The position numbers and the translations under genes were made by a program. The notes under the pieces were generated by a model, which ran no database searches, had not been told where the DNA came from, and saw only the letters and a program-made list of their open reading frames with translations. Positions 14,676-63,300 of a DNA stretch of 64,000 bases are shown piece by piece (the first letter of the stretch is position 1; each line of letters starts with the position of its first letter). Source of the stretch: Colius striatus (Eukaryota > Chordata > Aves > Coliiformes > Coliidae); contig NC_084774.1 in the NCBI RefSeq assembly GCF_028858725.1, positions 620,001 to 684,000 on the forward strand, read 5' to 3'.

Positions 14676-14682
14676 CGATGAT
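14490..14682 (+). mobile_element. CR1 LINE 3' end, second unit
   Basis: CR1 tail at the end of the second 2-kb copy, with more changes than the tail at 12,478-12,668 (GGCGCGTTCCAACCCCTACC, GGATTCGATGATG). Confidence 0.85.
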
Positions 14683-25080: not shown

Positions 25081-28000
25081 TGAACAACCTCCTACACATT
25101 CCTCAATCAAAATTGGCTACTATAGTATTTAGTATCTGAAAGTTAAGGTATGATACTAGTCTTAAAAATACTAAATGTAATGTATTACATTAGCATTACC
25201 CTTTCCAGATCTTCAAGAAGTGGTGCTGTTTCCAGAATTGATGGTGGCTTCATTTTCTTGCCAAGAAAGACAAAGTTTCTTTCTTCAAGATTTTGAAAAC
25301 TCTGAAACCATACGAAATAGATGACAAAGGCAATACTTAGTAAATGGGTTTGAGCTTACATCCAACCTAAAAACTATTTTTTTTGAGAAGAATTAGCCAA
25401 AGAAATGATAAACAGAAATGAAGTACAACTCACACACACGTCACACAGAACAGAGCTGAGACTCCTACTGTCCCCTGACTTGGCCATTGCCTCTGTTTCT
25501 TGCTTTTTTTCCTTTTGTCTCTTCCCCTGCATTTTTTTTTGCCCTTCATATTTTCACAGAGGCACCACCAACTTTGCTGGCTTGCTGACCTTTGGTCTGG
25601 TCTTGTTGCTGATGTGGCTGGATTCAGTCCCTGATGTCCCTCCACAGAGTCCCTCCACAAAGACCACTCTTGTAGCCTCAACACTACCCACACCTCCACA
25701 TATATGACACACGTTTGCAGAGGTTTAAATGGAAGCTATATCCTGGAATTACCCGTTGCTCATTTTCAGTTCTATGTGTGTTCAAAGGATCAGAATTTAA
25801 GCACTGCTGAAGCCTGAGAAATATACAAATATTAAATTCAATGGAAATGCAAAAGGAAAGTGTAATCGATAAATATCACCAATATTTCTAAAATGGCACG
25901 AAACAGTTCACCTACAAAATATCTCTGATGTATTACCTGTGCCAACAAAAACCCTCAAATATGAAAGAAGAAATCAAAAAGTACCATTTTGGATGTAAAA
26001 TTTACTATTAGGTTTTAGGTATCTGAAAATAACCCAAAGGTTTTTTTAACCAAGACAATTGGTGGGTTCCTCAACTTCAGAAGAAAATCAGATGGGACTG
26101 CAGGAAAAAAGTGTCTTAAAGTTGCAAAACCATGAAACAATGTATCTTTGCAACAGTTAAAACTTGAATTAAAAACACTCCTCAGGTTGTTTACATATGC
26201 AGCAAGTGATCTGCAGCATAACAAAAGCCTTGCACAAGTCAACTCAGTCAGATTTCATTCAGCTTGAAAACTTTATAAATCACACTAAGAATAAAAGAAG
26301 GCAACTGAATATGCTGAGTGTGCAGAAACGTACTGCCTCATCACAGCCTTGTTTTCAAGCTACTGTTTAGAAAGAATTGCTATTTTTACTGTGGTCTGGA
26401 TAAGTATCAGCAGCTTCTAATTGCCTCCTTCCCCAATACCATGTGCACACATCTTGTCTTACCCTCTGCCCTTTTAGCTGTCTAAGAAGAGTAACTGGAA
26501 ACATACTACAGCTCCTAATTATCTGACTACACAATTGGTTCAAATATGTAACATACTGTACCATACCTGTCTGTGTGAACTGCTGGATTTTCCTTGAAAG
26601 GCAATCCTGGGATTGTTTTGACAATCTATCAAGAAAAGACAAACCCTTTTCTGGCAGTAAAATACTGTTTAAGAGCAACATTTTAGAAAAAAAAGATTAC
26701 TGAGCTCAAGGTGGTTTTCTTACCTAACCGAATTTTCTTCATTAAGAATCAAGCATGCAACAAGAACATCAACCACACAGGAGAATCAGTTCATGTTCAC
26801 AGCTCAAGCTATAGCTTCTGGCAGCTCTTTCTCTGAAGAATTCCCCCCTGTATTCCCCCAACAACTACCAAAAGCTGGCCACACAAAACCACTACACATC
26901 TTCACAGCACTAGAGCAAGTGAGTACAAAAGGAGACACAACCTGTTCAAAGTCCATCATTGCAATCTAAAAACCCAAAACCACCAGAACCACAAACTTGA
27001 AGGACAACGTTCTCTTTTAACTAGATCAAGAGTTAGTCCCAGATTTGTTACAGAAAAGGACGTGATAGCTGACTACAGTATTCCTAATCTGCCTTACAGA
27101 TGCTGCACTTAATTCATTCTGACATTTGAATAGAAAATCTAACACTTACAGATGTGGTAGTTTCACTGTCATCTGTGTTGGAGCTTTGTCATGTCTTTTC
27201 AAGAACAGAACCAGATACAGCAAGATCTAGAAAGACGATTTTAAAAGATGCAGAAACACGTTTGGGATTATCTGAATCTATGAAAGGCCAGTGTTTTTAC
27301 AGTTGGTTGCAACTGACTTCTTTCTCTGCTTGTCTCATTTTCTAATGGCAAAAAGAACAACCAAAAGACAGTTGTATTTACATAAAGATATGCAAATGAA
27401 CCGAGTGAACAAGGACAGAGGATATTTATAGTGATTCAAGTCTGTTTTAAACAAGACAACTCACAGAAAACATTCAAGTTACCTCTGTGTAGAGAAATCC
27501 CTCTAAACTCAAATCAAACAGTAAGGTATCACTGATCAATGCTACAAGTTATTTCAACAGTATCTAATGCTTTTCAGCATATCAACAAATGACCCTGCAA
27601 CTCACCCTTTGTCTTATCAAGCACAAAATGCTTTAGAATATTCCTGCATCTGCTGATTTGATTGCTCTTTGTAAAGTCTGATACATAGGCAGTGTTTGTT
27701 AGGATACCATTTGTTCCACTTGTTGGATTCCAACTGATACAGTAGTTCAATATATCCAGGTAAAGACAAATGATGCACTGCATGAATGATTGCTGCCAAC
27801 ACACATGGTTCCCACTTGTTTCAGGATCTGTTGATACCTTCTGCTGGAGCAGCACTGTCCTCAAATCAAGTGCAGGATTAACAACTTTCATTGGAAGAGA
27901 GTCAAGATTTAATGATGTTTGGGTCTCCTGATAATCTGCTGAACTCACTGCATTCTCTTCAGCTTGCTCAAAATGAGCAAAGCTGCTTAAGACGAGATCA

Positions 28001-29885
28001 TCATTAATGCATACCTAAAAAACCCAAGTATTTGACTGACCAGAATCAACAAGCAAGTCACCATCACATACTGCTTTAGAATTTATTTGAAGCTGTAAAC
28101 AACAGGAAGACATATGCAGTATGTACAAATGCTTTCTGAAGAGTACTCATTCCACAGCAGGAAAGTTGGTCATATCTTCCTCTATGTTCTCCAAACAGGT
28201 GTTACTTACCAGTTTCATGCTTTTGCCTAAAATTCTGTGCTCAGTTTTCTATGAGCTTTTAGAAAAACTATCTTAGTTTTATGTCCCTTTGATTCAGAGT
28301 GCATCCAAACCTGGCAGGAAAAAACAATATTCAACTTAAAAGTTCTTACTGGCTCAGAGAGAAGTGACACTTGCCAACTGTGATTCTGAACAGAGAAGGT
28401 ATTCAAATTAAGATGTAATCCAAGTTATTGTCTACAGTGAAGACCACAGCTCTAATGTTAAAAGTCTTGGTAAAATACTCCAAATGGCAGCAGTTTTCAA
28501 ACACATTTATTTTTGTCTACTACGCAGCTGCTTAAGTCTGACAGTAGCTGCAGCAGAGATTTAGCAGGAGTTACGCACTTTGGTAAGCGCAACGAGCTTT
28601 CTTCCTTTCTCCCAACTGTTTGGGAATTCAGCCTTATGCACATATGAACTTGTATTTATTTTCATAACACCATGCAACTGCCTTCTTGAAATATCTTTAA
28701 GTGTATCACAAAGAAGGACAAGAGTACAGTAAATTCACATAGTTGTTCATCTGAAGTACTTGGGGGACTTCATTTGCTTGTCAATACCTTCCAAAGCGGT
28801 TCACAAGTTTCCACCTCACAGAATTCATTCCAAAGTTCACAAACAACAGATTTAGAAAATAAATCTTCTAGTAAGTTAATGATTGCACTTCTACTGTATA
28901 TGGCAAATTACAAAATTCACTTGCAAATAACACTTTTCGGTCTTAAATTTGTCACAAAGTTATAACTTCTATAGCAGAGTGCACAAAGAGGTTTATAGAG
29001 AGAAAAATATCTTACCTTTTCACCTTTTATTGTCACATAAAGGAAAACATCAGATGTGGTATCTTCTACAGCACATACTTTGGCTGTCGTCTGGGTAGTA
29101 GCAAAACTGAGTGATGGTGTTTCAATGACGCAGCTGCCTGTTCTTTCCTGCTCTCCTCCAGCCCAGTGTTTCCTCACTAACCCAGCATCTGGAAGAGCAA
29201 ACAATGGGTGTTTTAAAAGTCTCCCTCTCACTGCAGTGGTGACAAGTTTCTGTTGATCTCCTGGGGACTTTACTTTGGGTTTGCTTTGACATTTTGGCCA
29301 CCTGGACTTGAGAATTCTCCCTCCCTTTTCCACCCCCCTTTTCACATTTGTTGCCTGGGATTCTCCCTTTACAGTTCTTGCTGGACATTTATCCAGACTC
29401 TGTGCTCTGCACTTGAAACAACCAGCAGATGATTTCTGATGGAACCTGAGGCTCTCTGCACTGGTCTGATGCAAAGGCAATTTGCATCAAAACTCCTCCA
29501 AAATCCTTTTTTTTCTCTCTCAGAATTGCACCAAAACCTCATTTTATCCCTCACAACTCCCCCAAACCCCACTTTTTCCCCTCAAAACGCTTCCAAAACT
29601 CCACTTTTTCCCTCAAGATGGCACTTTTTGACCCAGCAGTTCCCAAAAATCCCACTTTTTCCCTCAGAATAGCACCCAAAACCCACTTTTCCTCGGAAAA
29701 TACCTCCAAAACCTCACTTTTTCATTCAGAACTCCACCAAAACACCACTTTTTCCCCTCAAAACACCACCAAAACACTTGTTTTTCCATAAATCCACACA
29801 AACCCCACTTTTCCCCTCAAAACTCCACCCAAATCCCACCTTTTCCCCTCAGAATTGCACCAAAGCCTCATTTTATCCCACAACT
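25081..29885. repeat. Segmental duplication, copy B
   Basis: This is the second copy of the block at 1-4,800, in direct orientation. Here the block is continuous at its left side with the 3' exons of TDRD12, whereas in copy A the left side is cut by the window edge. Its right end runs into a sequence unrelated to copy A after about 29,885, within the short C-rich minisatellite. Confidence 0.93.
29480..29885. repeat. C-rich minisatellite at the edge of duplication copy B
   Basis: Same ~33-bp repeat as at 4,395-8,225 but only about 400 bases long. It matches the start of that array (4,395-4,790) closely, then stops at CACAACTCCACC and continues into unrelated GC-rich sequence. The duplication breakpoint therefore lies in the repeat. 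Confidence 0.9.
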
Positions 29886-36539: not shown

Positions 36540-37140
36540 GCAAAGTGGTACCTTTTGGAAGAAATCCTCATTTTCACCATCCAAAGTGAGAGTTTTCTCT
36601 TCCAAACCCTCATTTGGGGGCCCATACCCTCCTTTTTAGCTTCCATTGCCTTCTTTGGAGGCCTGAGCCTCCATCTTAAGCTTTCAAACCTCACTTGGTG
36701 ACCCAAACCCTAATTTTTGCTCCCAAAGCCCGATTTTCAGCTTCCAGACCTTGGGTTTAGATTTCAAATCATCCTTTTCTACATCCAAACCATCATCTTT
36801 ACTTTCCAAAGTCTCATTTTTGTGTTAAAACCCCCATTTTATGCTTCCTAACCCTCATGTCTTAGCTTCCAAACACTCAATTTTAGCTTCCAAATGCTCG
36901 TTTTGTGGCCCAGATGCTCATTTTTAGCTTCCAAAGCCTCTTTTTTGCCTTTTTCAACCTTATTGCTTGGATCCCAGCCCTCAAGGTTTTGATTCCAAAG
37001 TCTCACTTTGTGGCCCAAGTTCTTATTTTGGGTTTAAACTGTTCCTTTTCAGCTTTCAATCCCTCATTCTCGGGTCTCAACCTCAGTTTTTAGCATCCAA
37101 GGCCTCGTTTTTAGCTTTCCAAAGCATCCTATTGGGTAGA
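36540..37140. repeat. Degenerate minisatellite (TTTTTAGCTTCCAAA type)
   Basis: Loose tandem repeat with units of about 30-35 bases built around TTTTTAGCTTCCAAACCCTC. It continues again at about 37,860-38,010 after the TTTAGACC array, so the two repeats interdigitate. Confidence 0.8.
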
Positions 37141-37860
37141 TTTAGACCCAAACCCAGGTGTTATACACCTAAAAGAAGGATTTAGACCCTAAAAACTAGG
37201 CTTTAGGCCCAAAAAGTCAGGATTAAGACCCTTAAATCGGGAGCTTAGACCCAAAAAAGATGATTTAGACCCTAAAAGCTTGGGGTTAGACCCAAAAATG
37301 GGTCTACAACTGGGGGTTTAGATCCCAAAAATGAGGCTTTAGATCCTAAAAGCTAGACTTTAGATCAAAAAAATGAGGGTTTAGACCCCAAAACTAGGGT
37401 TTTAGCAATAAAAAAGAGGGTCTAGACCCTAAAACTAGGAGTTTAGACACCAAAAATGCATATTTAGATCCTGAAACCAGGGATTTAGTCCTAAAAATAA
37501 GGATACAGACCCTAAAACTGGGAGCTTAGACCTGGAAAACAAGGATTTACACCCTAACAACAGGGTTTAGTCCTAAAACCAAGGATCTAGACCCTAAATC
37601 TGGGACTTTACACACCAAAAAAAGGGATTTAGACCCTAAAACTGTGGGTTTAGACTAAAAAATGGGGATTGAGACCCTAAAAGAGGGGGTTTAGGCCGAA
37701 AACAAGGATTTAGACCTTAAAAACAAGACTTTAGGCCCAAAAAATGAGGATTTAGACCCTAAAACTGTGGGTTTAGACCCAAAAAATGAGGATTTAGATC
37801 CTAAATGTTTGGGGTTAGACCCAAAAATGGGTATACAACTGGGGGTTTTTTAGGTTCAAA
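37140..37860 (-). repeat. TTTAGGG-like 42-bp minisatellite, left array
   Basis: Tandem units of the type GGATTTAGACCCTAAAACT alternating with GGGTTTAGACCCAAAAA, about 42 bases per double unit. It is the reverse complement of the array at 40,190-41,470. On the minus strand it reads TTTTAGGGTCTAAATCC. Confidence 0.92.
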
Positions 37861-40189: not shown

Positions 40190-41470
40190 TAGGGTCTTTA
40201 TCCCAGTTCTGCAGATTAAACCCCTGGTTTTAGGGTCTAAATCCTTGTATTTGGGGTCTAAACACCCAGTGTTAGAGTCTAAGTCCTGGTTTTTGGTCTG
40301 AACTCCCTGTTTTAGGGTCTAAATCTCCTTTTTTTGGGTCTAAACCCACAGTTTTAGGGTCTAAATCCAGATTTTTGTGGCCTAAAGTCTAGTTTTTAGG
40401 GTCTGAATCCTTGTTTTGAGGTCTATACCACCTGGTTTTGGGTCTAAATCCTCGTATTTGCTGTCTAAACTCCCAGTTTTAGGATCTGGATCCTCTTTTA
40501 TGGCTAAAACCCTAGTTTTAGGGTCTAAATCCTCATTTTTGGGGTCTAAACCCTCGGTTTTAGCACCTAAATCCCCTTATTTTGGTGTCTTAACTCCCAG
40601 TTTTAGGGTCTGGATCCTCGTTTTTAGGACTAACACCCTGGTTTTAGGGTCTAAATCCTTGTATTTTGGGTCTAAAGACCCAGCGTTAGGTCTAAGTCCT
40701 GGTTTTCAGTCTAAACTCCCTGGTTTAGGGTCTAAATCTCCTTTTTTGGGTCTAAACCCACAGTTTTAGGGTCTAAATCCTCATTTTTTGGGCCTAAAGT
40801 CTTGTTTTTAGGGTCTGAATCATTTTTTTGAGGTCTATACCACCTGGTTTTGGGTCTAAATCCTCATTTTTGCTGTCTAAACTCCCGGTTTTAGGGTCTG
40901 GATCCTCGTTTTTACAACTATATCCCTGCTTTTAGGGTCTAAATCCTTATTTTGGGCATCTAAACAACCAGTTTTAGCGTCTAAATCCTCTTTTTCAGTA
41001 TAAATCCTACTGTTTAAGGGTCTAAAGCCTTATTTTAATGCCAAAACTCCTAGTTTTAGGGACTAAATTCTCTGTTTTGGTCAAACCCCCCTGTTTTAAG
41101 GTCTATCTATACCACCTAAATCCCTAGTTTCAGGGTCTAAATCCTTCTATTTGGGGATCTAAACCCACTGTTTTAGGGTCTAAACCCTCATTTTTGGAGT
41201 CTAAAGTCTAGATTTTAGGGTCTAAAGCCTTGTTTTGGGATCTAAACCCCCAGTTGTATACCCATTTTTGGATCTAACCCCAAACTTTTAGGATCTAAAG
41301 CCTCGTTTTTTGGGTCTAAACCCACAGTTTTAGGGTCTAAATCCTCATTTTTTGGGCCTAAAGTCTTGTTTTTAAGGGGTAAATCCTTGTTTTCGGTCTA
41401 GTCCCCCTCTTTTATGCTCTCAATCTCCATTTTTTAGTCTAAACTGACACTTTTGGGGTCTAAATCCTCT
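40190..41470 (+). repeat. TTTAGGG-like 42-bp minisatellite, right array
   Basis: About 30 double units of the type TTTTAGGGTCTAAATCC / TTTTTGGGGTCTAAACCC. It is the inverted counterpart of 37,140-37,860, ends abruptly at 41,475 and passes directly into an LTR piece. The open frame at 40,416-40,769 is a by-product of the repeat. Confidence 0.92.
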
Positions 41471-41474
41471 TTTT

Positions 41475-42075
41475 TGGTGCCCGTGCAGAGCAGGTTTGTG
41501 TCAGCGCTTGTGAGCCTGGGAGGGCCCCGGGCTGGAGCGGTCTGTCCCCGTGGGACTGTTGTGGCGGTGGGTGACCCCCACTGGGGCAGGGTGTGAGGAG
41601 CTGCCCCCATGGCAGGCCCCAGGCTGGAGCAGTTGGTGAGGAGCTGCAGCCCGTGGGAAGGAGCCACGCTGGAGCAGTTGGGGAGGGACTGTCTCCCGTG
41701 GGAGGGAGCCCACAGTGCAGCAGTGGGAAGCGTGAGGAGGCCTCTCCCTGAGCAGCAGCGGCGGCAAAGTCCATCTGTGATGAACTGAGCACAACCCCCA
41801 TGGTCTGCGCTGCTGGGGGGAAGGAAGGGGAGTCCTGGGCAGAGGAGGGGTGGGGGGAGGGGTTTTCCAGGCGTTTTTATTTCTCATTTCCTTGCTCTTC
41901 TTTTGTAATAATCAAACCTTTTCTCCCCAAGTTGAGTCTGTTTTGCCTGTGACGCTCATTGCTGAGTGACCTCTCTGTCCTTAACTCACAAGTGCTTTGT
42001 TATATTTCCCTCTCTCTCCAGTTTAGGAGGGGGAGTGATTTAATGACTGGGTGGACATCAGGCTAAACCACCACA
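41475..42075 (+). mobile_element. LTR 3' part, plus orientation
   Basis: Nearly identical to 53,310-53,913: GTGCAGAGCAGGTTTGTGTC, GGAGCAGTTGG twice (an internal tandem motif), CTTTTGTAATAATCAAACC, CCCCAAGTTGAGTCTGTTTT, GGGAGTGATTTAATGACT, ending GGCTAAACCACCACA. The 5' part is replaced by the minisatellite. Confidence 0.82.
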
Positions 42076-46694: not shown

Positions 46695-48045
46695 TCAGAA
46701 AAGAAACAGCTTGATGCTCACGAGTGCATTGAAGGCAATACTTTTTGCCAGCAGGACTCTCAAGCCCAACACAGTCACAGAGAGCATGTTTGTTTTCTCC
46801 CCTTCAGCATCTGTTCAGTGATAAAGATGAGAGAGATCATGGTCTAGATTTGGATATTGTGACACTGTCAGAAAGTGGGAAAAAAACCAAACCCAAAGGT
46901 TATCGATTCAGGGGAAGATGATAGAGATACATGACAACAACATGGGAGGAGGATGTCTGTCTACACTGGGTTTTGCTTTATGATGCTTGTCTACTGCTAA
47001 ACCAGCTGCCTTTTAAAGCAGCTGTATTTTGATTCCCCTACCCCTGAGAAAATAGATTTGCATGCATTTACCACCAACATTGTCATGTATCTTCACAATC
47101 TATTAGGTAACTAACCTCGCATAGAGATGTCTGTGGTGTTGCAAATGTTCCCTGTTACTGATTCTTCAGCCTCCTTTTCTGTAGCATGATAATAAAAAAA
47201 TGTTACAAATGATAGTCACATTTTTAAAAGGATTAAACAAAATGTTCACATGACCCTTCCCATAGGAACACGTGGGCAGTACAGCCTGAGGCTCCGCTGC
47301 CCACTCACTAATTCTAAGATTAATGAAGAGGAGGAGATTTCTCCATGCATTTGCAGAAAACAGAAGAATTATTGAATTGCTTTGGGTTTAGTGTTTGAAT
47401 GAGTAAAAAAATCAACCCCCTTTTTCAAGAAAAAGAAACAAAATCCCACCACTGTAACTTTTTGCTGTGTTTACAAAGGCTATTTCAGGCTGTGCCAAGA
47501 TGTTTGCTTCCAGGGGAAACTATTTAGTCATAACTAAATGTGCATTTTTAAAAAAGATTGTGCCTTACTTTTCTCCCAAAAAAAGTAACTCCAAGTTGTT
47601 AAACAGTTCAGATTGTTTATGCTTTTAAACATCTGTCATCTCCACTTGCTCATGTACCAGATGTCTTCCCCATTTCTGCTGGTTACCCAGCACAGCACTC
47701 ACTAGCAGGAGAAACAGCAAGCATCAGAAGATGCTGCCTCCAGAAATAAGTTGCAGCTGTACCACAAAACTGTACCTAGCAATGTTTCTTTGCCATCGTG
47801 TTTGGCTGTGCAAGCCACCTCTGTGCCTTTTGTTGCACTGACCACCTTAATGGTATCGTACAACCCTTCTGATGTCAAAACGGGTGTATTTTGCTCATAT
47901 ATGACTTCATTAGAGGACACCTCCAAGATGACATTCTTTGTATAGAACTTCCTTGCCAAACAAGCTACTTTCTCGGTGTTGCCATCTTCTTCCAGTTTCT
48001 TTGACTTCATCACAATGACTTGTGGGTCAGAACTCCTTATGTTGT
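46695..48045 (-). CDS. TRDC: T-cell receptor delta constant gene, complete
   Basis: Three exons on the minus strand. EX1, 48045-47776 (270 nt), is the Ig-C domain with SDPQVIVMKSKK, the two fold cysteines in VACLARKF and VACTAKHD, and a preceding TTTTTTACAG acceptor. EX2, 47178-47116 (63 nt), is the connecting peptide with one cysteine (GNICNTTD) for the interchain bond and an N-linked site (NTT). EX3, 46810-46695, is the transmembrane segment: NMLSVTVLGLRVLLAKSIAF and then SIKLFLF and stop TGA. Arg and Lys in the membrane are the residues that pair with CD3 in all TCR alpha and delta chains. All introns are phase 1, have GT and AG ends, and the frame is open throughout (about 149 residues). 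The order and motifs match vertebrate TRDC. Given the antibody-like V upstream, it fits the second avian TCR-delta locus rather than the classical TCR-alpha/delta locus, of which no other piece is seen here. Confidence 0.93.
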
Positions 48046-48453
48046 CTGTAAAAAAAATAAAGCATTGTTTGGGCATGATTTGGTTTGATTGCCAACTTGT
48101 CTGAGGTGCTGTCACTTAAAGTTCATATATACTCCAGCTGTGACTAATTCCTGGCTTTATCAATGACTAACTGCCTTTTCTTCCTCATTATTTCTTACTG
48201 CTGCTTCTAAAAGATCAGATCAAAGGCAGAGAGTAGGGGTTTTTATGGGAGCTTTCAGTTCACAGGATTCTAAGCCTCCTTTTTTCCAAAGCTCATTCTT
48301 TATTTATAAGTAAAGGACTTGCAAACCAGAAGAGAACATTTATTTATTCCCTTCCAAGAGTCAAATTATACCGCTTTCTCAACAATTTAATTCCTAAAAA
48401 TAACACTTTGATCAAGGACTGTCTTGCATATTCCAGAGACATAGGAGAATAAC

Positions 48454-48517
48454 TGGTTTTCCTTAACTCTCCCTCCCCTCCCCCAAATCTTCTCCTGATG
48501 TGGCTAAAAGGTTTAAC
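48454..48517 (-). other. Candidate J-delta segment (weak)
   Basis: A 64-base segment 409 bases upstream of the constant gene. It is open in one frame (VKPFSHIRRRFGGGEGELRK) and contains the F-G-x-G core of a J, but has Glu where J segments have Thr. From Phe to the splice site it is 34 bases, as in known J-delta, and it ends in phase 1 before GT, which suits TRDC EX1. The donor is poor (GTTATT). A degenerate RSS precedes it. It could be a diverged J, a dead J or chance. It is the only F-G-x-G candidate I found between D and C. Confidence 0.35.
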
Positions 48518-48544
48518 CACAGCAAGAGTAACAGGACAAAGAGA
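48518..48544 (-). promoter_or_regulatory. Candidate J recombination signal (degenerate)
   Basis: On the plus strand CACAGCA (5 of 7 with CACAGTG), an 11-base spacer, then ACAAAGAGA (6 of 9 with ACAAAAACC). Spacer length is one short of 12. Weak on its own; it has value only because of its place next to the F-G-x-G frame. Confidence 0.3.
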
Positions 48545-50102
48545 TGTCAGTTTGTTGCTTCACTATTGTGCAAAGTTACCCCAATGAATGACATTGCAGA
48601 AATGAAGTGCTGCTGCTGGACTGGGGTCAAGGTTGATCTTTTCTAGAACAAATGCTCAGATGCAAGAACGACTTTTGTCTCTAAGATGGGGAAGTAGGAG
48701 AGAAGCAATCAGAAGTCTGTGAATTGTGGATCTCCACTTCTCCAGGAGTTCCTGACAAGGTCAAGAACTTTCAGCTATGGGGAAAGTTTTCCTCACTAGA
48801 CATTGCACGTGCTGTGAGCTATTCCGACACATCAGGAGACAATGAAAAAGAGTAATACTGGTACTTGGTTCAACAAAAATTCTTTTGCTTGTTCTGAAAA
48901 GTGTGACCTTTCTCATCCATCTGCTGTGACATATTGTTTGTTCCACAGCTCCAGGGGCAGTTAGAAGTATAATGCAGAATTGGTATAATAAACTGATTTG
49001 AAGGGAAGAACAACCCGAGGCCAATGAACTTCTGATGTCCATGGACAAATCTTCTTACAAGCTTCCTTAAATTAGTGTAATAACCTTCAGAGGTAATGTT
49101 TTAGTGTTAAGAAACCAACAAACTTCAAGGCATGACAAATGTGCCCGAGCATTGGAGCTTTGAAAGAGCTTAAAAGATGCTGATAAGCTTTCAGAGGATT
49201 TGAAATCCCTGCTCTCTCATCTTTCCAAAGAGTTACTCTGAAACTTTTATATACTTTTCTTTTTCAGTTTCGAAGGCATTTTAGAGTTCAGTTCCCAATT
49301 CCAAGCAACACACACGAATGATAAAGGTTTCACAACTGCAGAAGCCTTAATTTCAACTACACAGCAGCAGCCTTCTCAAGGAATTTCTTATGACATACAA
49401 GTAATGAAACATGATTGCTTAAACTTGAAAGAGATGTCTTTTCAGGAAACAGTGGTCTCAAAATAATTCAGTAGCCAACAAATCATTGTGATTTCTTGAA
49501 AAATAAAATATCTTTGCCCTCAGATCATAGATGGAGAAACCAGGCTGGTTCCACATACAAATGTCAGGACAAGATTAGCAACATGAATTTTGATAAAATC
49601 AAGAAACTGAAGGGAATCATCCAGCGTGCTTCCTTGCCAGACAGAGCTCAGCTTATGAAGGCTGGTTAGACAGACAAGAAAAGATTTACATGTCCAGCTT
49701 GTCAGGAGCATGCTGATGGATCTCTTTGCTAAAAAGAGGTGCATTAGGCTTTGAATTTTGCATGGCATCTGCCTTGCAGGGTGGTCAAAAGATCTTTCAG
49801 GTGTAACATTTTTCTCAATACAGGACACTTTTTTAAGGTTTGATCAAGGGGCTCTGATTTTCTTCTTTTTCCACATTTTCTTCCAAAACTGGAAAGGGAA
49901 AAACAATAATGAAATAGTTCAATGATTTCAAAGTGAGGACAGAATTTCCAGCTTCTACCTTTCATCCACCTTTTAGAAACCCTTTGAGCTCTATTCCCAG
50001 GATAAACAGAAATATTAAAAGAATGTTGCATTTGCCTCCTTAATCATTTCAGTCACTCAGCTTCTTTTTTCCCCAAAATATGTTGCCTTTTTTCCTCCTC
50101 TA

Positions 50103-50141
50103 GGTTTTTGTACAGGACCCTATGCTGTTTATATCATTGTG
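50103..50141 (-). promoter_or_regulatory. RSS with 23-bp spacer, 3' of D
   Basis: Minus-strand reading: heptamer CACAATG (6 of 7), spacer of exactly 23 bases (50,134-50,112), nonamer ACAAAAACC (9 of 9, perfect). It would pair with a 12-bp-spacer signal of a J segment. Confidence 0.95.
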
Positions 50142-50154
50142 GTAACCCAGCCAC
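50142..50154 (-). other. D segment of the TCR-delta locus (13 bp)
   Basis: The core reads GTGGCTGGGTTAC on the minus strand. It lies exactly between two recombination signals facing outward: a 12-bp-spacer signal on its 5' side and a 23-bp-spacer signal on its 3' side, the arrangement of D-delta segments. It can be read as VAGL or WLGY-like residues depending on frame, and one frame contains a stop-free GTG GCT GGG TTA. It lies about 2.1 kb from TRDC EX1 and 4.4 kb from the V, all on the same strand. Confidence 0.93.
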
Positions 50155-50182
50155 CACAGTGATAGATTTCATTGCAAAAAAC
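50155..50182 (-). promoter_or_regulatory. RSS with 12-bp spacer, 5' of D
   Basis: Plus-strand reading: heptamer CACAGTG (7 of 7), spacer 50,162-50,173 of exactly 12 bases, nonamer GCAAAAAAC (7 of 9). By the 12/23 rule it would pair with the 23-bp-spacer signal of the V segment. Confidence 0.93.
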
Positions 50183-52640
50183 TGTCACTTCCTGCTTCTT
50201 TACTACTCAGAATTTGGATTCTAGTCATGTGACTTCTTGAGTGGTTTCTGATGCAATACACCACATAAAGAAATGTGATATCAGTAAATAGTGAAGAAAC
50301 ATGAAAATCCAGCACTTTTAGTGCTATCTCAAAGCATTTATGACAATCTGCTTCACCTTGAACCTGGTTTCAGTTCTCAGGAGTTTATCTGAGCTCTTAT
50401 CTGGGCTCTAAAAGTTGGTGTCTGAGGGTCATTTAGTGCCTTAGAAAGTCTTTATGCTGGTTTGAGACAAGGAAGCAGGCAAAATGATTGTTCATAAACA
50501 CAGACTTATTGTGCACTGTTTGAGCTCAGGATCCAGAGAGGAGAAGACAATGCAGAAAAGCAGGACTGGAGCCCTCGACTTCAGGAAAGCAGAATCTGGG
50601 CTCTCCTGCTTAGAAAAATCCCATAGGTTATGGCCTTAGAACGAAGAGGGCCCTGGAACTGCTTGATTTTCAGAGATTAACTCCTCCAAGTTCAAGAATG
50701 TTTCATCTTGACGATGCAGCAAATGAAGAAACTTTCAAGAACATCTGTGGACCAGTTGCCCCAATCTTAACAATTTCTAACTACTTTCATTCTAAATTTC
50801 CTAACTCTTTCTGGACTTTCCAGTATTTATGGTCTCAAAACCTGTTTTCATGGGAAATGACAAACATCACATTTATGAATTGTTAAAACATTACTTTGGA
50901 TTAGCTGACAGTGGTTTGATGGAATCTGCCTTGATGTGCTAAAGCTGCTTATGCACTCAGGTATCTGATTTTTACTATCTCTTGAGTTATTTTTATAAGG
51001 GTTTTGGAAGGATTTTCCCAATTACTCCAGCACCTTTTTTTGTTTCTCAGTTTCTTTGCTCTTGTGAGCTAGATTATTTGACCACAGTGTTGGCTATTCT
51101 GTGGGCTATTATTTATTTACCTAAGCCCTTGGCTGAGCTTGAAGGGGGAAATATCTAGTTATGACTGACCAAAGCTGGCTTTTTAATTGGATCATGGAGC
51201 AGTCTCTGCATCTTCACACCCAGTTCTAAGACACAAAACGAAACAGCATTACTTCATCCTATTCACAAATCAGTGACTCCCCACTGATACAGTGGTTCCC
51301 CACTGGATTACTCCGTGTTTATTTGCATTACTGTTGTAATTACTCTTTATTGTGTTTAAGTGTTTTCTCCTCCTTATTCCCTCATTCCTCCCAGGAAAAT
51401 GTTGAGATGTCTGATGTGATACTTTCAGTCTTTTGAAATGTTGGCAGAAGAAAGAGAACAAGCTCTAAATGCCTCCTGTAACAGACCTGGGTACATCCAG
51501 GTGCCTCTCTCACAGCCTTTGCCTGCTGCCAAGTCTTCCCAGAGCAGTGAGAACACACACAGTTTTTCACTGGGCTCTCAGATGCAATTGAACAGCCTTT
51601 TCCCTTTGGGTGGCCACAGGAACACACTTGCCATCACAGCCTCCCACAAGTTGTTGCAGTACCTCTATGCCCCTTGCCAGGAAAGTCAGCTCAGAGAGGT
51701 GTAGCAAGTGCCTTGCCTTGAGGCCAGCAACAACCATCCATGATGGATTTAACCCCCCTCTTTCCAGGTCTGCTCTGGCCCTGCACTCTGCCCTTTTCAG
51801 CCCTCTGCTGCCCTGCAAGCACTCTGCCCTTTTCAGTCCTCTGCTGCTGCAGAAACAGGGTAGTGAAGTGACACCCTGTTTCCATGGGGCACCAGAAACC
51901 ATGGTGTCTCTTTCCCCAAGATGTTGTTTGCTGATGACTCCATCAGCCTCCCACACAATCAGTTCCTTCATCTTGCTCAGAGGCCACCTGGCCAGTGTCT
52001 GTCTGCTTCAGTGAGGAGCAACAAACTGTGATCACTCCAAGGAGCAAAGACTGGAGTGATGCTGGTGTAGCATCAGACACTGGACTGGTAGGAGAACTAA
52101 ATGGTTCTCTGTGAACTCAGCAGAAAAAGTTTAGCAGAGAAATAGAGCTGGCACCAGGAAGGAGGCAACACCTTCCCCTCTTCTGTGTCAGACAGGAGCT
52201 TTTTCTGATTTTCCCATTCAAAACAGTAAGTGCATCTGAAGGACAAAGCCCTTTCTTTCCCAAGCTGGGATGGTGAGGAATCCACTCTCCTGCCCCTGGA
52301 ATGGCTCTGAATGAGCACAGCAAGGACAAGGACCTCTCACAGGCAAGTAGGGAACAACTACACTGCCCTCCTGAAACCTGTTTTTTTTAAGATGGGCTGC
52401 AGTGCCCCATGAGCAGTTTCCAGCCCCAGTTACACCACCAGCCCACAAGATGAGTGAGCAGCAGGTTGGTGCATCCCCATCCCACCTCTGCAGAGGCTGG
52501 TCAGATGTCCAACACTGCTGTGCCCTGCAGGGATGGCAGGAAGGGAGCCAGGGGCAGGTCAGGCTGCAGCAGCCAGCACAGCTCCACAGAGCCCTGCAGA
52601 GCACAGGGGCAAGCTCAGTTCCCAGGAAACATCAACCCTT
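50183..52640. other. V-D interval, no gene recognised
   Basis: Mostly AT-rich unique sequence with short open frames lacking domains. I found no further V, D or J with a convincing recombination signal. A leader-like mini-exon lies just to the right, at 52,649-52,688. Confidence 0.4.
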
Positions 52641-53039
52641 TCACTTACCTGTGATGGAGAACATCACCACACACACGGCAGCACACATGGCCAGAGCCGC
52701 TCGCTGTTGCCTCTCTGCCCGCAGATCAGCTCTGCCCACATCTTCCCTGCCTCAGCTTTGGTCACTGTACTCACCCCAGGCAGTGCTACAGGCTGGGACA
52801 GAGAGGCTGGAAAGCTGCTCAGAGGGAAAAGACATGAGTGTTAATTGGCAGCAGCTGAACATGAGCCAGCGGTGTGCCCAGGTGCCCAAAAACGCCAATA
52901 GATTCCAGGCTTGGGTCAGAAATAGTGTGGCCAGCAGAACCAGTGATGGAGGTAACGCCTCTGTGAAGAACAGATTTGAGAAGGGAGGTTGTTGGTCAGT
53001 TGCAAAACTGCAGCAGCCACAGGGAGGGAGAATGTGAAA

Positions 53040-53913
53040 ACATCTGGGCAGACCCCAAGGTCAGTGGAGAAGGAGGGGGAGGAGGGTGCTTAGGCACTGG
53101 AAGAAAGACTCCTCTGTGATATGTGGTGAGGACCATGGTGAGGCAGCTGTGCCCCTGCAGTCCATGAGGTCCTCAGGGAGCAGAGACCCACTGGCAGCCC
53201 GTGGAGGAGCCCAGGCCGCAGCGGGTGGATGCCTGCAGGAGGCTGTGGCTGTGCTGGAAGCTCATCGTGGAGCGAGCTCCTGGCAGCAGCTGGGAGCCTG
53301 TGGGGGAGGTACCCGTGCAGAGCAGGTTTGTGTCAGCGCTTGTGAGCCTGGGAGGGCCCCGGGCTGGAGCAGTGTGTCCCTATGGGACTGTTCTCCCGGT
53401 GGGTGACCCCCGCTGGGGCAGGGTGTGAGGAGCTGCCCCCATGGCAGGCCCCAGGCTGGAGCAGTTGGTGAGGAGCTGCAGCCCGTGGGAAGGAGCCACG
53501 CTGGAGCAGTTGGGGAGGGACTGTCTCCCGTGGGAGGGACCCCACAGTGCAGCACTGGGAAGCGTGAGGAGGCCTCTCCCTGAGCAGCAGCAGCGGCAAA
53601 GTCCATCTGTGATGAACTGAGCACAAGCCCCATGGTCTGCGCTGCTGGGGGGAAGGAAGGGGAGTCCTGGGCAGAGGAGGGGTTGGGGGAGGGGGTTTTC
53701 AGACGGTTTTATTTCTCATCTCCCTGCTCCTCTTTTGTAATAATCAAACCTTTTTCTCCCCAAGTTGAGTCTGTTTTGCCCGTGACGCTCACTGCTGAGT
53801 GAGCTCTCTGTCCTTAACTCACAAGTGCTTTGTTATATTTCTCTCTCTTTCCTGTCCCATTTAGGAGGGGGAGTGATTTAATGACTTGGTGGACACTGGT
53901 CTAAACTACCACA
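53040..53913 (+). mobile_element. LTR of the 41,475-42,075 family
   Basis: Long LTR-like element ending GGTCTAAACTACCACA at 53,913, with CTTTTGTAATAATCAAACC, AAGTTGAGTCTG and GGGAGTGATTTAATGACT near the 3' end and tandem GGAGCAGTTGG units inside. It is almost identical to 41,475-42,075 over its right 600 bases. The 5' end is not defined. It lies between the V and D segments of the receptor locus and breaks no coding part. Confidence 0.78.
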
Positions 53914-54515
53914 ACTCACCTGGCAGCAAAACCTCTCTGGGCAAAAAGAGATGTGCTGTAGGGCCACCCCAAGTTTCCTCTGGAGCAGCACTGCACGCCG
54001 TTGCTGCTGGGATTCTGAAGATGGCCCCACAGCTCTCAAGTTGTCCCTTGCTCCTGTTACAGTCTCAGATCTGGGAAAAAAAAGCACAAATTCCCTATTC
54101 TGCTCCAAAGCTTCCAAATGACACTGTATTTCCCTCATTTTCTCTACCCAGTCCTCAGGCAGCTAAGTTGTGGGCTAGACTGAGTGAGCCTGAGCCATGC
54201 CCAAAACCACAGCAAGGCTATTTACAGACCCCACCAGCTGGGCCATGGCTGGGTGGGAACCAAAGCTAACAGCAAAAACTGTTTACAAAGGCAAAAAGGT
54301 TATGGAGTGTGACAGGGGTAAGGATCAGCCTGAGACATGGGGAGATGGCAATCAGAAGGGTCAGGACAGAAAGGGACAAAACCAACTGAAATGACCCTTT
54401 CAGAATCAACACTGGAAAACTGATGCTGTAACTACACAACTCTCCGGGGAGCAGCACTGAAAAAGTGTGGGAATAGTCCCCAGTTTTGAGGCCCAGAGTT
54501 GGGGCAGTGCCAGAA

Positions 54516-54554
54516 GGTTTCTGATAAAACTCATTTACATTTCCCGTCCCTGTG
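54516..54554 (-). promoter_or_regulatory. RSS with 23-bp spacer, 3' of the V segment
   Basis: Minus-strand reading directly after the V coding end: heptamer CACAGGG (6 of 7), spacer of exactly 23 bases (54,547-54,525), nonamer TCAGAAACC (7 of 9). This is the signal type expected of a heavy-chain-like or delta V segment and complements the 12-bp signal in front of the D. Confidence 0.92.
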
Positions 54555-55235
54555 TGTGCGAACAGCACAGAAGTAGCGGGCAGAGTCCTGTGGGCTCAGG
54601 GCACTTAGAGACAGAGCTGTCCTAAACCGGGAATTGTCCCGGGACACAGAGGCTCGACCATTCACTGCCGGTGCACGTTGAATCAGTGATGAACTAGGAG
54701 AGATAAAGGACACCCACTCCAGCCTGCCTCCGGGTGCCTGACGGTACCATCTTATTGCGTATGTCCCGAAGTTGAAGCCGTGTCCGCGGCAGAAGAGGAG
54801 CACGGAGTCCCCGGGCGCTCGCTGCCCTCCGCCGGCCTCCACCAGCCTCAGCTGCGCCCACACGCCTGCGGACGGACGGACGGACGGAGAGCGCGGGCAC
54901 CGGGCACGGCGCGCCCACGGCCCGAGGACGGGCACCCGCCGGCCCAGCGCCCCCCGCCCGGCCCGGACACAGCCGCAACAGCGGGGCAAGCCCCGCACCC
55001 GAACCCTCCCGAACCCTCCTCTTCCCTCTCTCCTTCTCACTTTCCCTCGCCCTCTCCCAGCTTCTCCTTCTCTCTCCACCCGTCCCTCTCCCTGTTCTCC
55101 CCCTCCCTGTCCCCCTCCCTCCCGCTGCCGCTGCCCCCGCCCCAGGCTCGCCGCCCTCCCCGCCCGCCGCCTCTCACCTGCCGGCCCCAAGGCCAAGCCC
55201 AAGCCCAGCAGCCACGGTCCCGGCCCGGCCGCCAT
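54555..55235 (-). CDS. Antibody-like V segment (VH-delta type), intact germline gene
   Basis: Two exons on the minus strand. The leader exon 55235-55178 encodes MAAGPGPWLLGLGLALGPA, a hydrophobic signal peptide, with donor CAG/GTGAGAG. After a 312-base intron, the V exon 54865-54555 (acceptor CGCAG) completes the leader with GVWA and gives the V domain: framework 1 QLRLVEAGGGQRAPGDSV, first cysteine in LLFCRGHGF, conserved Trp in IRWYRQAPGG, framework 3 RASVSRDNSRFRTALSLSAL, and second cysteine in DSARYFCAV, then RT at the RSS. There is no stop or frameshift. Framework 1 and 3 are of immunoglobulin heavy-chain type; WYRQ and FCAV are more like T-cell receptor V. In Galliformes such V genes sit at a second TCR-delta locus; the delta constant gene 6.5 kb downstream on the same strand points the same way. 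Without transcripts an isolated IGHV-like segment cannot be excluded. Confidence 0.92.
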
Positions 55236-55600
55236 CGGCGGAACAAGGGCCCGGCGGGGCCGCACACGAGCCGAGCGGAGCCGAGCTCGGGCCCGCCGCT
55301 GCCCGCCCCGTCGCCTCGGCCCCTCGTCGCCACAGCGCCCGCGCCTCTGCCCGAAGCCCGCACAGCCGCCCCGGCCCGGCCCCCCGGCGACAGGGCCCCT
55401 CCGCGCAGGAGAAGGGGCGGCGCCACAGCACCGGCGCGGCTGGCCCCCTGCTCGGCCCCAGCGCTCCTGCGCACACGCTCAGCCCCTGCCGAACGGTGCT
55501 GGCGAGCTTCAGAGCTGCAGGAAACGAGGGGACGGTGCCGCAGATGACCCGACGGCATCAAAAGGCTGCTCCGTTCGATCGGCGCTAAGAGCCGCGGCAG
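54770..55600. promoter_or_regulatory. CpG island covering the V leader and upstream region
   Basis: Very GC- and CpG-rich sequence spans the 5' half of the V exon, the intron, the leader exon and about 350 bases upstream. V genes usually have AT-rich promoters with an octamer (ATGCAAAT). I see no octamer here. Overlapping open frames of more than 240 codons on both strands are compositional by-products. The simple repeat GGACGGACGGAC lies just upstream of the V acceptor. Confidence 0.7.
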
Positions 55601-55819
55601 AGATGTGGCGGGGGGAGACGTGCGGGAACGGACAGCATTTGCCTTCAGCACATGTGCAGGTGACAGCGCTCTGCAACGAGCGGCTGATCCAGCGCAGGGT
55701 TGTGCTGCTGATAGCCTGAGGCACCTCAGCCGGCTGCAGCAGCGGGCTGCCAGCAGCCTCACAGAGCTCAACAAGCACTTAGGACACATTGCTGCACCGG
55801 GAGCAGAACAGCCCTAAGC

Positions 55820-58074: not shown

Positions 58075-58345
58075 TGCCCTGAGGCGAGCCCGCCTCTGAT
58101 TGGCTGCGGGGCTGTCACTGCCCTGGCTGGGCCCGCCCTCCCTGAGGCAGCGTTTTCTCTGATTGGCTGAGGAGCTGTCACTCTCTCCCGGGCTGGGCCC
58201 GCCCTCCCTGAGGCGATGATGTCTCTGATTGGCTGCGGGGCTGCCACAGCCGTGGCTGGGCCCGCCCTCTCTGAGGCGCCGCCGCCTCCGATTGGCGCAC
58301 ACGTCAATCAGGGCTGTGCCCGCGTCCTGCGCTGCCATTGGCTGT
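58075..58345. promoter_or_regulatory. CCAAT-box repeat, probable promoter
   Basis: Five inverted CCAAT boxes (ATTGG) at 58,099, 58,162, 58,228, 58,291 and 58,337 lie in degenerate tandem units of 63-66 bases that also carry GGGCCCGCCCTCCCTGAGGC (GC boxes). Such NF-Y-type arrays are typical of TATA-less CpG promoters. The region is GC-rich. Transcription could go either way; a small open frame follows on the right. Confidence 0.6.
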
Positions 58346-59226: not shown

Positions 59227-61925
59227 CTCCCACCCAAACTGCACTTATTCCCCTCAAAACTCCACCAATAACTCCACTTTGCCCTCAAATCTCTACTAAA
59301 CTCCCACTTTCTCCCTCAAAACTCCTTAAACCTTCCACTTTTCCCCTCAACTCTCCACTAAACTCCCACTTTCTCCTCAAAACTCCTTCAAAACCCCCTT
59401 TTCCCCTCAATTCTCCACTAAACTCCCACTATCTCCTCAAAACTCCTTAAAACCCCACTTTTTTGCCTCAAATCTCCACTAAACTCCCACTTTCTCCTCA
59501 AAACTCCTTCAAGACCCCCTTTTCCCCTCAATTCTCCACTAAACTCCCACTTTCCCCTCAAAACTCCTTAAAAACCCCACTTTTCCCCTGAAATCTGCAT
59601 TAAACTCCCACTTTCTCCTCAAAACTCCTTAAAAACCCCACTTTTCCCCTCAAATCTCCACTAAACTCCCACTTTCTCCTCAAAACTCCTTAAAAACCCC
59701 ACTTTTCCCCTCAAATCTCCTCTAAACTCCCACTTTTGCCTCAAAACTTCACCAAACCTCACGTTTTGGCTCAAAACTCCCCCCAAACCCCCTTTTTTCC
59801 CCTCATTACCCCACTTTTGCCCCTCAAGACCCTCAAACACCCCATTGATCTCCTCAAAACTCCCCCAAAACCCCCCTTTTTCCCCCTCAAAACCTCTCTT
59901 ATCCCTTAAGACCTCAAAACCTCCCCATTTTCTCCTCAAAACCCCCTTTATCCCCTCAACCCCCCCTTTTCGACTCAAACCCCTCTTTTATCCCTTAAGA
60001 CCCCAAAACCCCCTTTTTCCCCTCAAAACCCCCCTTTTAACCCTTAAGACTCCAAAACTCTCCCTTTTTCCCCTCTAAAGTCTCCTTTTATCCCTTAAGA
60101 CCCCGAAATCTCCCCTTTTTGCCCTCAAAACCCTTTTTCCCTTCAAAACCTACTTTTTCCCTCAAAACACCACCAAAACTCCACTTTTCCCCTCAAATCT
60201 CCACTAAACTCCCACTTTCTCCTCAAAACTCCTTAAAAACCCCACTTTTCCCCTCAAATCTCCACTAAACTCCCACTTTCTCCTCAAAACTCCTTAAAAA
60301 CCCCACTTTTCCCCTCAAATCTCCACTAAACTCCCACTTTCTCCTCAAAACTCCTTAAAAACCCCACTTTTTCCCCACAAAACCCCCAAAGCCCCACTTT
60401 TCCTCTCAAAACTCTAACAAACACTTTTTCCTCTAAATTCCAATAAATCCTTTTTTTTCCCACAATACTCCAGCAAAATCCTACTTTTTCCCTCAAAACT
60501 CCTTCAAGACATGACTTTTTCCCTCCAAAACACCACAAAAACCCCACTTTTTCCTCAAAACTCCACTGAAACCCCTTTTTTCCTCAAAACTCCATCAAAA
60601 ATCTCATTTTTTTACTCTGAAAGCCCCCCGAACCCCCAGTTTTTCCCTCCAAACTCTGCCAGAATCTCAATTTGCCTTCAAAATTGTACCACAACTCCAT
60701 CAAAAACCCCCTTTTCCCCTCAAATCTCTACTACCACTTTTTCCCTCAAAACCCCTTCAAAACCCAACTTTTTCCCACAAAAGCACCCCTTTTCCTCTCA
60801 AAGGTCCACTGAACTCCACCTTCTCCCCTCAAAACTCCCCTTTTATCCCTTAAGACCCCAAAACCTCCCCTCTTTCCCCTCAAAACCTCCGTTTTTCCCC
60901 TCAAACCCCCCCTTTCCCCTCAAAAACCCCTCTTTTAACCCTTAAGACCCCAAAATCTCCCATTTTCCCCTCAAAACCGCAATTTTTCCCATCAAACTCC
61001 CTTTTCCCCTCAAAACCCCTCTTTTATCCCTTAAGACCCCAAAAACTCCCCATTTTCTCCCCCCAAACCCCCTTTTTGCCCTCAAAAGCCCCCTTTCATC
61101 CCTTAAGATCCCCAAATCTCTCCCTTTTCTCCTCAAAACCTCCCTTATTCCTTCTAAAACCCCCTTTTCATCTCAAAAATTCCTCTTTTAACCCTTAAGA
61201 CCCCAAAACTTCCCCCTTTTCCCCTCTAAACCCCCCTTTTATTCCTTAAGACCCCCAAACCCCCCTTTATCCCCTCAAAATCTCCATTTTTCCCCTCAAT
61301 GCCCCCTTTTTCCCTTCAAAACCTCTCTTTTATCCCTTAAGATCCCCAAACCTCCCTTTTTTCACCTCAAAACCACTTTTTATCCCTTAAGATCCTAAAA
61401 CACCCCCTTTTTTGCCCTCAAATCTTGCCTTTTATCCCCTAAGACCCCAAACCTTCCTTTTTCCCCTCAAAACCACCTTTTATCCCTTAAGATCCCCAAT
61501 CTCCCCCCCTTTCCCCTCAAAACCCCCCTTTTATCCTTTAAGACTCCACAACTCTCCCTTTTTCCCCCAAAAGTCTCCTTTTATCCCTTAAGACCACAAA
61601 ATCTCCCCTTTTTCCCCTCAAAACCCTTTTTCCCCTCAAATCCTTCGTTTTTCCCCTCACCCCAGCCCTTTTTCCCTCAAACTCAACTTTTTCCCTCAAA
61701 ACTCTACCAAAACTCCCCCTTTCCCCTCAAAACTCCTCTAAACTCCCACTTTTGCCTCAAAACTTCACCAAATCTCACGTTTTGGCTCAAAACTCCCCCC
61801 AAACCCTCCTTTTTCCCCTCATTACCCCACTTTTGCCCCTCAAGACCCTCAAACACCCCATTTATCTCCTCAAAACTCCCCCAAAACCCCCCTTTTTCCC
61901 CCTCAAAACCTCTCTTATCCCTTTG
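59227..61925. repeat. C-rich minisatellite field, left part
   Basis: Tandem units of about 31-32 bases (AACTCCCACTTTCTCCTCAA / CCCCACTTTTCCCCTC), passing into a variant with TTTTATCCCTTAAGACCCC. Larger duplications occur: 59,700-59,930 recurs at 61,730-61,925. Open frames across it (up to 144 codons) are by-products. Confidence 0.93.
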
Positions 61926-62060
61926 GGTGCTGGGGAGGGGGTTTGGGTACTGGAGGTGGGCTCTGGGTGCTGGGGAGGGGGTCTGGGCACTGGAGTGGGC
62001 TCTGGGTGCTGGGAGGGGAGTCAGGGTGCTGAGGGGGAGGGGGATTGGTGCTGGGGGGAT
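61925..62060. repeat. G-rich minisatellite GGTGCTGGGGAGGGGGTTTGG
   Basis: Short array of a G-rich unit of about 20-21 bases, the same as at 63,755-64,000. It lies on the 3' side of the LTBP TB exon, as the other array lies on the 5' side of the EGF exon. Confidence 0.85.
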
Positions 62061-62250
62061 AAAAACGGCCCCCAAAGGGGTCGTGAGATGGGGGGGGTGG
62101 GGGGCTACGCGCGACCTTCTTAGTGAGGCACTTGGGGTCCCATCATGGGGGCGCATGGAGGGGTCAGCTGGATCCCTCCCATCGCCACGGGGTGAGTGGG
62201 GGATGTTGAGGGGTCCCTGTGTTAGCGGGGGGGTGCCCCGAGGCTCCCAC

Positions 62251-62403
62251 CTGAGCGGCGCTCGGGGCACAGGGCGCAGTCCATGCCCCAGGCGTGTCCG
62301 TACAGGCAGCAGCACTCGCTGTACGTCGCCTGCCCGTCCCGCCGCGGCCGCCCGCACACCAGGTCCGGCCGCAGCTCCTGCCAGCACTCGGCCCGCGCCG
62401 CTG
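62251..62403 (-). CDS. LTBP4: LTBP-type TB (8-cysteine) domain exon
   Basis: A 153-base exon on the minus strand with acceptor GCGCAG and donor CAG/GTGGGAG. It encodes ECWQELRPDLVCGRP, then QATYSECCCLYGHAWGMDC and ALCPERR. The Cys-Cys-Cys triplet followed by LYG and GMDCALCP is the hallmark of the last TB domain of latent TGF-beta binding proteins, extracellular-matrix proteins that hold latent TGF-beta. LTBP4 fits best by eye; LTBP3 or LTBP1 are alternatives. The exon is intact, but no partner exon of the same gene is found on its 3' side within the minisatellite, and the exon on its 5' side looks terminal. Confidence 0.75.
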
Positions 62404-62509
62404 CTGCGCGGGGGGCTGCCGTCACGCGCCGCGACCACCCCCCGCACAGCGCCACACACCCCCAGATCCGCGCTGGCCCCGCCGAATGCGCTTGGGGACT
62501 CCACAGACT

Positions 62510-63300
62510 CCCCCAAAAACACCCCAAAACTCCCCCTTTTGTCCCTCGGAACTCCACCAAAACGCAACTTTTTCACTCAAAACTCCACCAAAACTCCCCT
62601 TTTCCCCTCAAATCTCCTCTAAACCCCCACTTTTGCCTCAAAGCTTCACCAAACCTCACTTTTTGCCCTCAAAAGTCCCCCCAAACCCCCCTTTTATCCC
62701 TTAAGACCTCAAAACTCCTCCTTTTCCCCTCAAAAGTCCTCTAAACTCCCACTTTTGCCTCAAAACTTCACCAAAACCTCCCTTTTTGGCTCAAAACTCC
62801 CCCCAAACCCCCCTTTTTCCCCTCAAAAGCCCCCTTTCATCCCTTAAGATCCCCAAATCTCTCCTTTCTCTCCTCAAAACCTTCCTTTTTCCTACTAAAA
62901 CCCCCCTTTTATTCCTTAAGACCCCCAAACCCCCCTTTATCCCCTCAAAATCTCCGTTTTTCCCCTCAACGCCCCCTTTTTCCCTTCAAAACCTCTCCTT
63001 TATCCCTTAAGATCCCCAAACCTCCCTTTTTTCACCTCAAAACCCCTTTTTATCCCTTAAGATCCTAAAACTCCCTTTTTTCCCCTCAAAACCCCCTTTT
63101 TCCCCTCAAAACCCCTCTTTTATCCCTTTAGACCCCAAAACCTCCCATTTTCCCCTCAAAACCTCCATTTTTCCCCTCAAACCCCCCCTTTTCCTCTCAA
63201 AACCCCTCTTTTATCCCTTAAGACCCCAAAACCCCTTTTTCCCCTCAAAACCCCCTTTTTCCCGCCTTTAGACCCAAAGCCGCCCCTTTTCCCCTCAGCG
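62510..63300. repeat. C-rich minisatellite field, right part
   Basis: Continuation of the 31-33-base C-rich repeat between the two LTBP exons, including stretches nearly identical to 61,080-61,400 (CCCCTTTATCCCCTCAAAAT, TTTTTATCCCTTAAGATCC). Confidence 0.92.

Follow-up and report, generated by a model that had tools for sequence, protein, structure and literature searches.

We examined a 64-kb stretch of genomic DNA (64,000 nucleotides, hereafter the window, with positions counted from its first letter) that holds a compact cassette of T-cell receptor (TCR) delta type. The cassette comprises a leader exon, an antibody-like variable (V) exon, a diversity (D) segment, and a three-exon constant (C) gene, all of which lie on the minus strand in the order leader, V, D, and C within 8.5 kb. 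All of these parts are open, and their exon joins are of the AG/GT type and in phase 1. The V and D segments are bordered by recombination signal sequences (RSSs) with spacers of 12 or 23 bp (12-RSS and 23-RSS), and a candidate joining (J) segment is found between D and C. The features are as follows.

55235-55178, minus strand: leader exon MAAGPGPWLLGLGLALGPA plus the first base of the next codon, with a phase-1 donor CAG/GTGAGA
54865-54555, minus strand: VH-like V exon VWAQLRLVEAGGG...YFCAVRT, containing the V-domain Trp and both V-domain Cys
54554-54516, minus strand: 23-RSS of V, CACAGGG-23 bp-TCAGAAACC, directly 3′ of the V exon
50182-50155, minus strand: 12-RSS 5′ of D from the RSS scan, CACAGTG-12-GCAAAAAAC read from the coding end
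50154-50142, minus strand: D segment GTGGCTGGGTTAC, 13 bp, open in three frames (VAGL / WLGY / GWV)
50141-50103, minus strand: 23-RSS 3′ of D, CACAATG-23-ACAAAAACC, the top RSS score in the window
48544-48518, minus strand: weak RSS belonging to the J candidate, CACAGCA-11 bp-ACAAAGAGA
48517-48454, minus strand: J candidate VKPFSHIRRRFGGGEGELRKT plus A, of the right length and phase, with a poor motif and a donor, CCA/GTTATT, that is not credible
48045-47776, minus strand: C exon 1, an immunoglobulin C1 domain (Pfam and PDB matches)
47178-47116, minus strand: C exon 2, connecting peptide EKEAEESVTGNICNTTDISMR, with a Cys
46810-46694, minus strand: C exon 3, transmembrane segment NMLSVTVLGLRVLLAKSIAFNALVSIKLFLF, stop TGA at 46697-46695, followed by a donor GAG/GTAAGG

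Variable, diversity, and constant segments

Splicing of the leader to the V exon through a phase-1 join gives the translation MAAGPGPWLLGLGLALGPAGVWA-QLRLVEAGGG...YFCAVRT. The leader donor CAG/GTGAGA is at the 99.7th percentile of the 3963 GTs on this strand, against which all donors in this study were ranked using a generic score table. The V exon matched the Pfam V-set family (E = 1e-07), and its best 60 of 10080 matches in PDB were antibody-type or engineered chains with the exception of two TCR mu chains. Among 12 V references, V was closest to chicken IGHV1 (48%, 94.7 bits), followed by human IGHV3-23 (46%), with the three TRDV references at 41.6 bits or less. V also grouped with the four IGHV references with an ultrafast bootstrap of 93 and an SH-aLRT (Shimodaira–Hasegawa-like approximate likelihood-ratio test) value of 98, slightly under the star level of the tree tool, in a tree that had no starred branches. 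In the 500-bp windows that cover the leader and V, the GC content is 0.66-0.77 and the CpG ratio 0.85-0.91, and the region at 54501-55750 around the V leader is CpG-rich as a whole (GC content up to 0.77, CpG ratio about 0.9), a setting that seems unusual for an antigen-receptor V gene.

The D segment lies about 4.4 kb beyond the V RSS, and the two signals that flank its 13 bp are the two highest-scoring RSS-like sites of the window in a scan of sites beginning with CAC. The third row of the score list is a spacer variant of a D site, the fourth, at 39137, is unrelated and has a spacer of 22 bp, and the fifth is the V RSS. The D arrangement as a whole has 3 mismatches in 32 positions; arrangements with at most 6 mismatches occurred in none of 341 Markov-resampled 64-kb single strands, and those with at most 10 mismatches numbered 19 in total over all 341 strands.

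The three C exons have AG acceptors, and their donors scored 3.04 (exon 1, 81.5th percentile), 7.6 (exon 2), and 10.35 (the donor directly after the stop codon, whose strength makes an exon of 3′ untranslated sequence likely). The transmembrane segment contains Arg/Lys residues of the kind that would serve CD3 association, and the Cys of the connecting peptide could form an inter-chain bond. Exon 1 matched the Pfam C1-set family (E = 4.7e-05). When the whole C was compared with PDB, the top 9 of the best 60 of 1857 rows had E values of 4.9e-13 to 5.9e-12; seven of these were named TCR delta, one was named "TCR" and showed the same delta sequence in its alignment, and the ninth, with about the same score and range, was named "TRA@ protein". 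Immunoglobulins began at 7.3e-07, mixed with three short delta-constant rows, and no row among these best 60 was named a TCR alpha chain. BLAST against the seven constants ranked TRDC first (1e-19), with human TRAC at 4e-07, and in the tree C grouped with TRDC and TRAC (97/98), undecided between those two. As a whole, the constant gene is thus nearest to TCR-delta constants and, as judged by these comparisons, of Cδ type. Single-sequence structure prediction returned a mean predicted local distance difference test score of 50.3 for V and 52.6 for C exon 1, and because of these values the models were too poor for a fold search.

The cassette appears to be single-copy, as searches of the window with V and C returned one match set each at E ≤ 0.05 and no second V or C. 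An earlier sequence-only reading of this DNA had called an intact delta constant gene, an intact VH-like V with a 23 signal, and a D with perfectly spaced 12 and 23 signals, in the right order on one strand within 8.5 kb, and each of these calls, coordinates included, was borne out by the analyses above. A phylogeny was among the checks that it proposed, and the trees described above placed V with IGHV and C with TRDC and TRAC together, without a further split. We consider the locus to be a single-copy TCR-delta cassette apart from the TCR-alpha/delta locus (TRA/D), of the avian TCRδ2 kind (VHδ-Dδ-Jδ-Cδ, VHδ being the antibody-like V), with a probability of roughly 0.85.

The joining segment and possible products

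The sequence-only reading had further claimed that the order V(23)-(12)D(23)-J-C obeys the 12/23 rule. The signals of V and D conform to this claim, and that of the J candidate, a weak RSS with an 11-bp spacer, does not; as a usable J was not found, a full V-D-J-C chain obeying the rule is not supported. The description of the locus as a VHδ-D-Cδ mini-locus with an antibody-like V is well supported, whereas its description as a complete, 12/23-compliant V-D-J-C unit is not backed.

In length and phase the J candidate corresponds to a delta J such as human TRDJ1 (F, 10 codons, and 1 base), and splicing to C would continue its reading frame. It is also the only one with an in-phase GT among the 13 scan positions that reached its motif score at 46-56 kb of this strand. 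A search with the terms that describe the candidate returned no other site on either strand of the window and none in 4000 Markov-resampled copies of the 2.1-kb D-C interval; with the RSS term removed, 2 of 500 resampled intervals gave a site. These terms were fixed after the candidate had been seen, and the Markov control loses the G-rich local composition. An alternative J frame in the same G-rich stretch (48485, WGRGGRVKENQ), whose motif score of 12 exceeds the candidate's 10, was rejected because it has no in-phase GT and has a stop upstream.

Several observations weigh against placing the locus in the TCRδ2 kind. Besides its 11-bp spacer, the RSS of the J candidate departs from consensus at 2 heptamer and 3 nonamer positions. 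The donor of the candidate scored -0.77, at the 50.5th percentile, and the best of 8 GTs inspected in and after the candidate scored 1.34 and was out of phase. A motif score at least equal to the candidate's 10 was attained at 139 scan positions in the 64 kb; 13 of these are at 46-56 kb of this strand, where the best score was 12 and the candidate was among the lowest. A J with a 5′ 12-RSS and a conserved 3′ splice site was not found, and the scans found no better J in the 64 kb: in a motif scan without the RSS term, nothing in the window reached the 17 of human TRDJ1, the best score being 14, and a regular-expression scan of the window in six frames found no canonical F/W-G-x-G-T/S-x-L-x-V J motif. 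For C, exon 1 alone returned immunoglobulins in all of its best 60 of 3472 PDB matches (best 1.8e-06), so that the delta assignment leans heavily on the connecting and transmembrane parts. Furthermore, C stops at the TGA of exon 3 before a strong donor, whereas in the duck report Cδ2 comprises five exons and carries a tail of 62 residues (PMC5278385).

With a motif score of 10 against 17 and a mid-range donor, the J candidate did not stand up as a working segment, and we interpret 48517-48454 as either the relic of a J or a fortuitous match. Given a J-like sequence with a defective RSS and no splice donor, decay of the J or a J that was not recognised is most likely, and we accordingly regard the locus as a variant of the known avian type that either was recently disabled through J decay or uses a J or a route unrecognised here.

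The first of these explanations, to which we tentatively assign a little short of an even chance, is that of a young pseudogene in which the RSS and splice donor of the J are gone while V, D, and C can still be read, such that no chain is made. The delta-J length and phase of the candidate, its weak RSS and non-functional donor, and the failure of the scans to find a better J all favour this explanation. There is also a precedent for cassette decay, as the chicken VHδ on chromosome 10 is, in the part of the avian source that classifies it, open-reading-frame-class only, with a poor RSS and an unusable leader (PMC10972964). The leader, V, and three C exons of the present locus are, however, without stops and retain splice sites as well as conserved residues, and the RSSs of D are near consensus, an intactness that needs either selection or a recent loss.

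The same near-consensus D signals, together with the open V and C, are what would be expected of the second explanation, a functional TCRδ2 whose true J is beyond the window or of a form missed by the scans, which we consider possible and somewhat doubtful. Against it, the scans, which covered the window on both strands, gave no better J, and in the duck, as far as the published description of the cluster extends, the segments are ordered VHδ, Dδ, Jδ, and Cδ (PMC5278385), while the D-C gap here holds no N.

If the locus were functional, RAG would join V by its 23-RSS to D by its 12-RSS, and the 23-RSS of D would be joined to a 12-RSS J, a step that is unsupported here. The rearranged product would be spliced to Cδ to give a delta chain whose V domain is antibody-like and which would presumably pair with TCR-gamma and associate with CD3 via the transmembrane Arg/Lys. 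The use of RAG, the pairing, the CD3 association, and expression itself are all suggested by established V(D)J biology.

A route without J can also be envisaged. The V exon is open past the RSS heptamer to a phase-1 donor at 54538 (AAT/GTAAAT) that scored 5.7 (94.6th percentile), compared with 3.04 for the donor of C exon 1; this donor was spotted post hoc among 4 GTs inspected. From it, an unrearranged V might be spliced to C exon 1 to yield an invariant germline VH-Cδ chain, and a V-D join might likewise be spliced to C without a J. We consider such a J-less cassette, which is conceived from the sequence, very improbable.

Neighbouring genes and repeats

The LTBP and TDRD12 neighbours that had been named for this locus are real. 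Two exons on the strand of the cassette lie upstream of it, one of LTBP-type TB (TB domain, 3.2e-10) and one of EGF-Ca (6.1e-10), and downstream are TDRD12 exons at 29.1-21.8 kb, the N-terminal ones of which occur again at 4.0-2.7 kb (the query being human TDRD12). A plus-strand TDRD12 match at 32.5 kb (E = 0.032) was put down to chance, and a second weak EGF match (E = 0.042) to repeat-domain overlap. Among 10 open reading frames of the window, Pfam found only the TB domain at E ≤ 0.01, and the window contained no Rfam families at the gathering score and no tRNAs.

These flanks bear on a third explanation, in which the cassette is the stray end of a conventional TRA/D locus. The layout of C, with its stop in exon 3 followed by a donor, is like that of a conventional TRDC, as in human. 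The LTBP-like exons upstream and the TDRD12 exons downstream speak against such an origin, as do the presence of a single V and the failure to find a canonical J motif over the 46 kb that lie 3′ of C, and we deem it very unlikely. The preferred reading, that of a separate TCRδ2-type cassette, agrees with the V/C match search and J motif scan of the window, in which no other TCR-alpha/delta genes and no TRA/D array were seen, the single V sitting in a small cassette. This much of the earlier claim of a separate mini-locus stands; a separation from TRA/D may be suggested, within these 64 kb, by the fact that no TRA/D genes were seen there and by the other genes on both sides.

The TDRD12 N-terminal stretch is present twice, at 1-3782 and 25082-28867 as sampled, with exons reaching 4017 and 29102; the two copies are separated by about 25.08 kb, show 97-99% identity in five 300-nt samples, and represent either a recent tandem duplication or an assembly duplicate. 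At 10487-14810, within a tract of 39-bp repeats (TGATGTCACAGAGCACTG...), a unit recurs three times at a spacing of 2012 bp, with 91-98% similarity among 300-nt samples. The stretch 58077-58296, some 3 kb upstream of the V leader, is composed of 63-66 bp tandem repeats with CCAAT boxes (AGCCAATCAGAG). Large minisatellite tracts (e.g., AAAACCCCACTTTTCCCCTC) are found at 59248-63297, 4561-8197, 37139-37837, and 40217-41477, and presumably resemble those of bird dot microchromosomes. A long terminal repeat (LTR)-like element is shared at 96% between 53308-53607, in the V-D interval, and 41476-41775; by eye, sequence of LTR-like appearance at about 52.9-53.9 and 56.3-56.8 kb resembles families of Neoaves rather than of fowl. 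The affinity of V to chicken IGHV, together with repeats of kinds that occur in birds, would suggest a bird as the source of the DNA.

Comparison with known loci

Unlinked TCRδ cassettes with an antibody-like V are a clear case of V-gene traffic between antibodies and TCRs. A sound leader, V, D, and C combined with a failed J, set between LTBP-like and TDRD12 exons, would catch such a cassette during its loss or a switch in use. Should the bird not belong to Galloanserae, the locus would also bear on how widespread the cassette is, and a comparison across birds would bear on whether TCRδ2 is ancestral and repeatedly lost.

In Xenopus and monotremes, VHδ genes are situated inside conventional TRD loci, as stated in passages of two papers (PMC7615758, PMC12529555). 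The present locus shares with these VHδ, and with the mammalian TCRμ, an antibody-like V combined with a constant that is of delta type or derived from delta, and differs from them in being a small cassette with one C-domain exon and in that no TRA/D array was seen within 64 kb. Extra, separate TRD loci are exemplified by Japanese flounder and Galliformes in the relevant part of a 2025 newt paper (PMC12698447), ascribed to "some birds" in a squamate paper that cites a 2023 avian survey there (PMC11754216), and mentioned for chicken and zebra finch in a passage of the duck paper (PMC5278385).

The second TCRδ locus of chicken and turkey, like the present one as far as its account goes, is a single cassette with an IgH-like V; in those birds it is unlinked to TRA/D. 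It was reportedly described by Parra and colleagues in 2012. A VHδ inside TRA/D in the zebra finch would be at odds with the duck-paper passage. In chicken, the single cassette is on chromosome 10 in the section of the source devoted to it (PMC10972964), and the flanks of the present locus are LTBP-like and TDRD12. Unlike the chicken VHδ with its poor RSS and leader, as characterised in that section, the leader and V RSS here appear sound, the weakness lying in the J.

The match to the second TCR-delta locus of Galliformes that the sequence-only reading had drawn extends to the layout, as given for chicken chromosome 10 (PMC10972964) and for duck (PMC5278385), and not to the J, nor, in comparison with the duck, to the end of C. 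The duck TCRδ2, in the text that describes it, is one cluster of VHδ, Dδ, Jδ, and Cδ, in that order, over about 16 kb and away from TRA/D, with a 23-RSS on V, 12- and 23-RSSs on D, and a 12-RSS and a conserved splice site on J (PMC5278385). Unlike that locus with its proper J, the present one spans 8.5 kb and is without a usable J; like it, within the same description, it has a single VHδ-D-C layout, a 23-RSS 3′ of V, a 12-RSS 5′ and a 23-RSS 3′ of D, and the same type of C.

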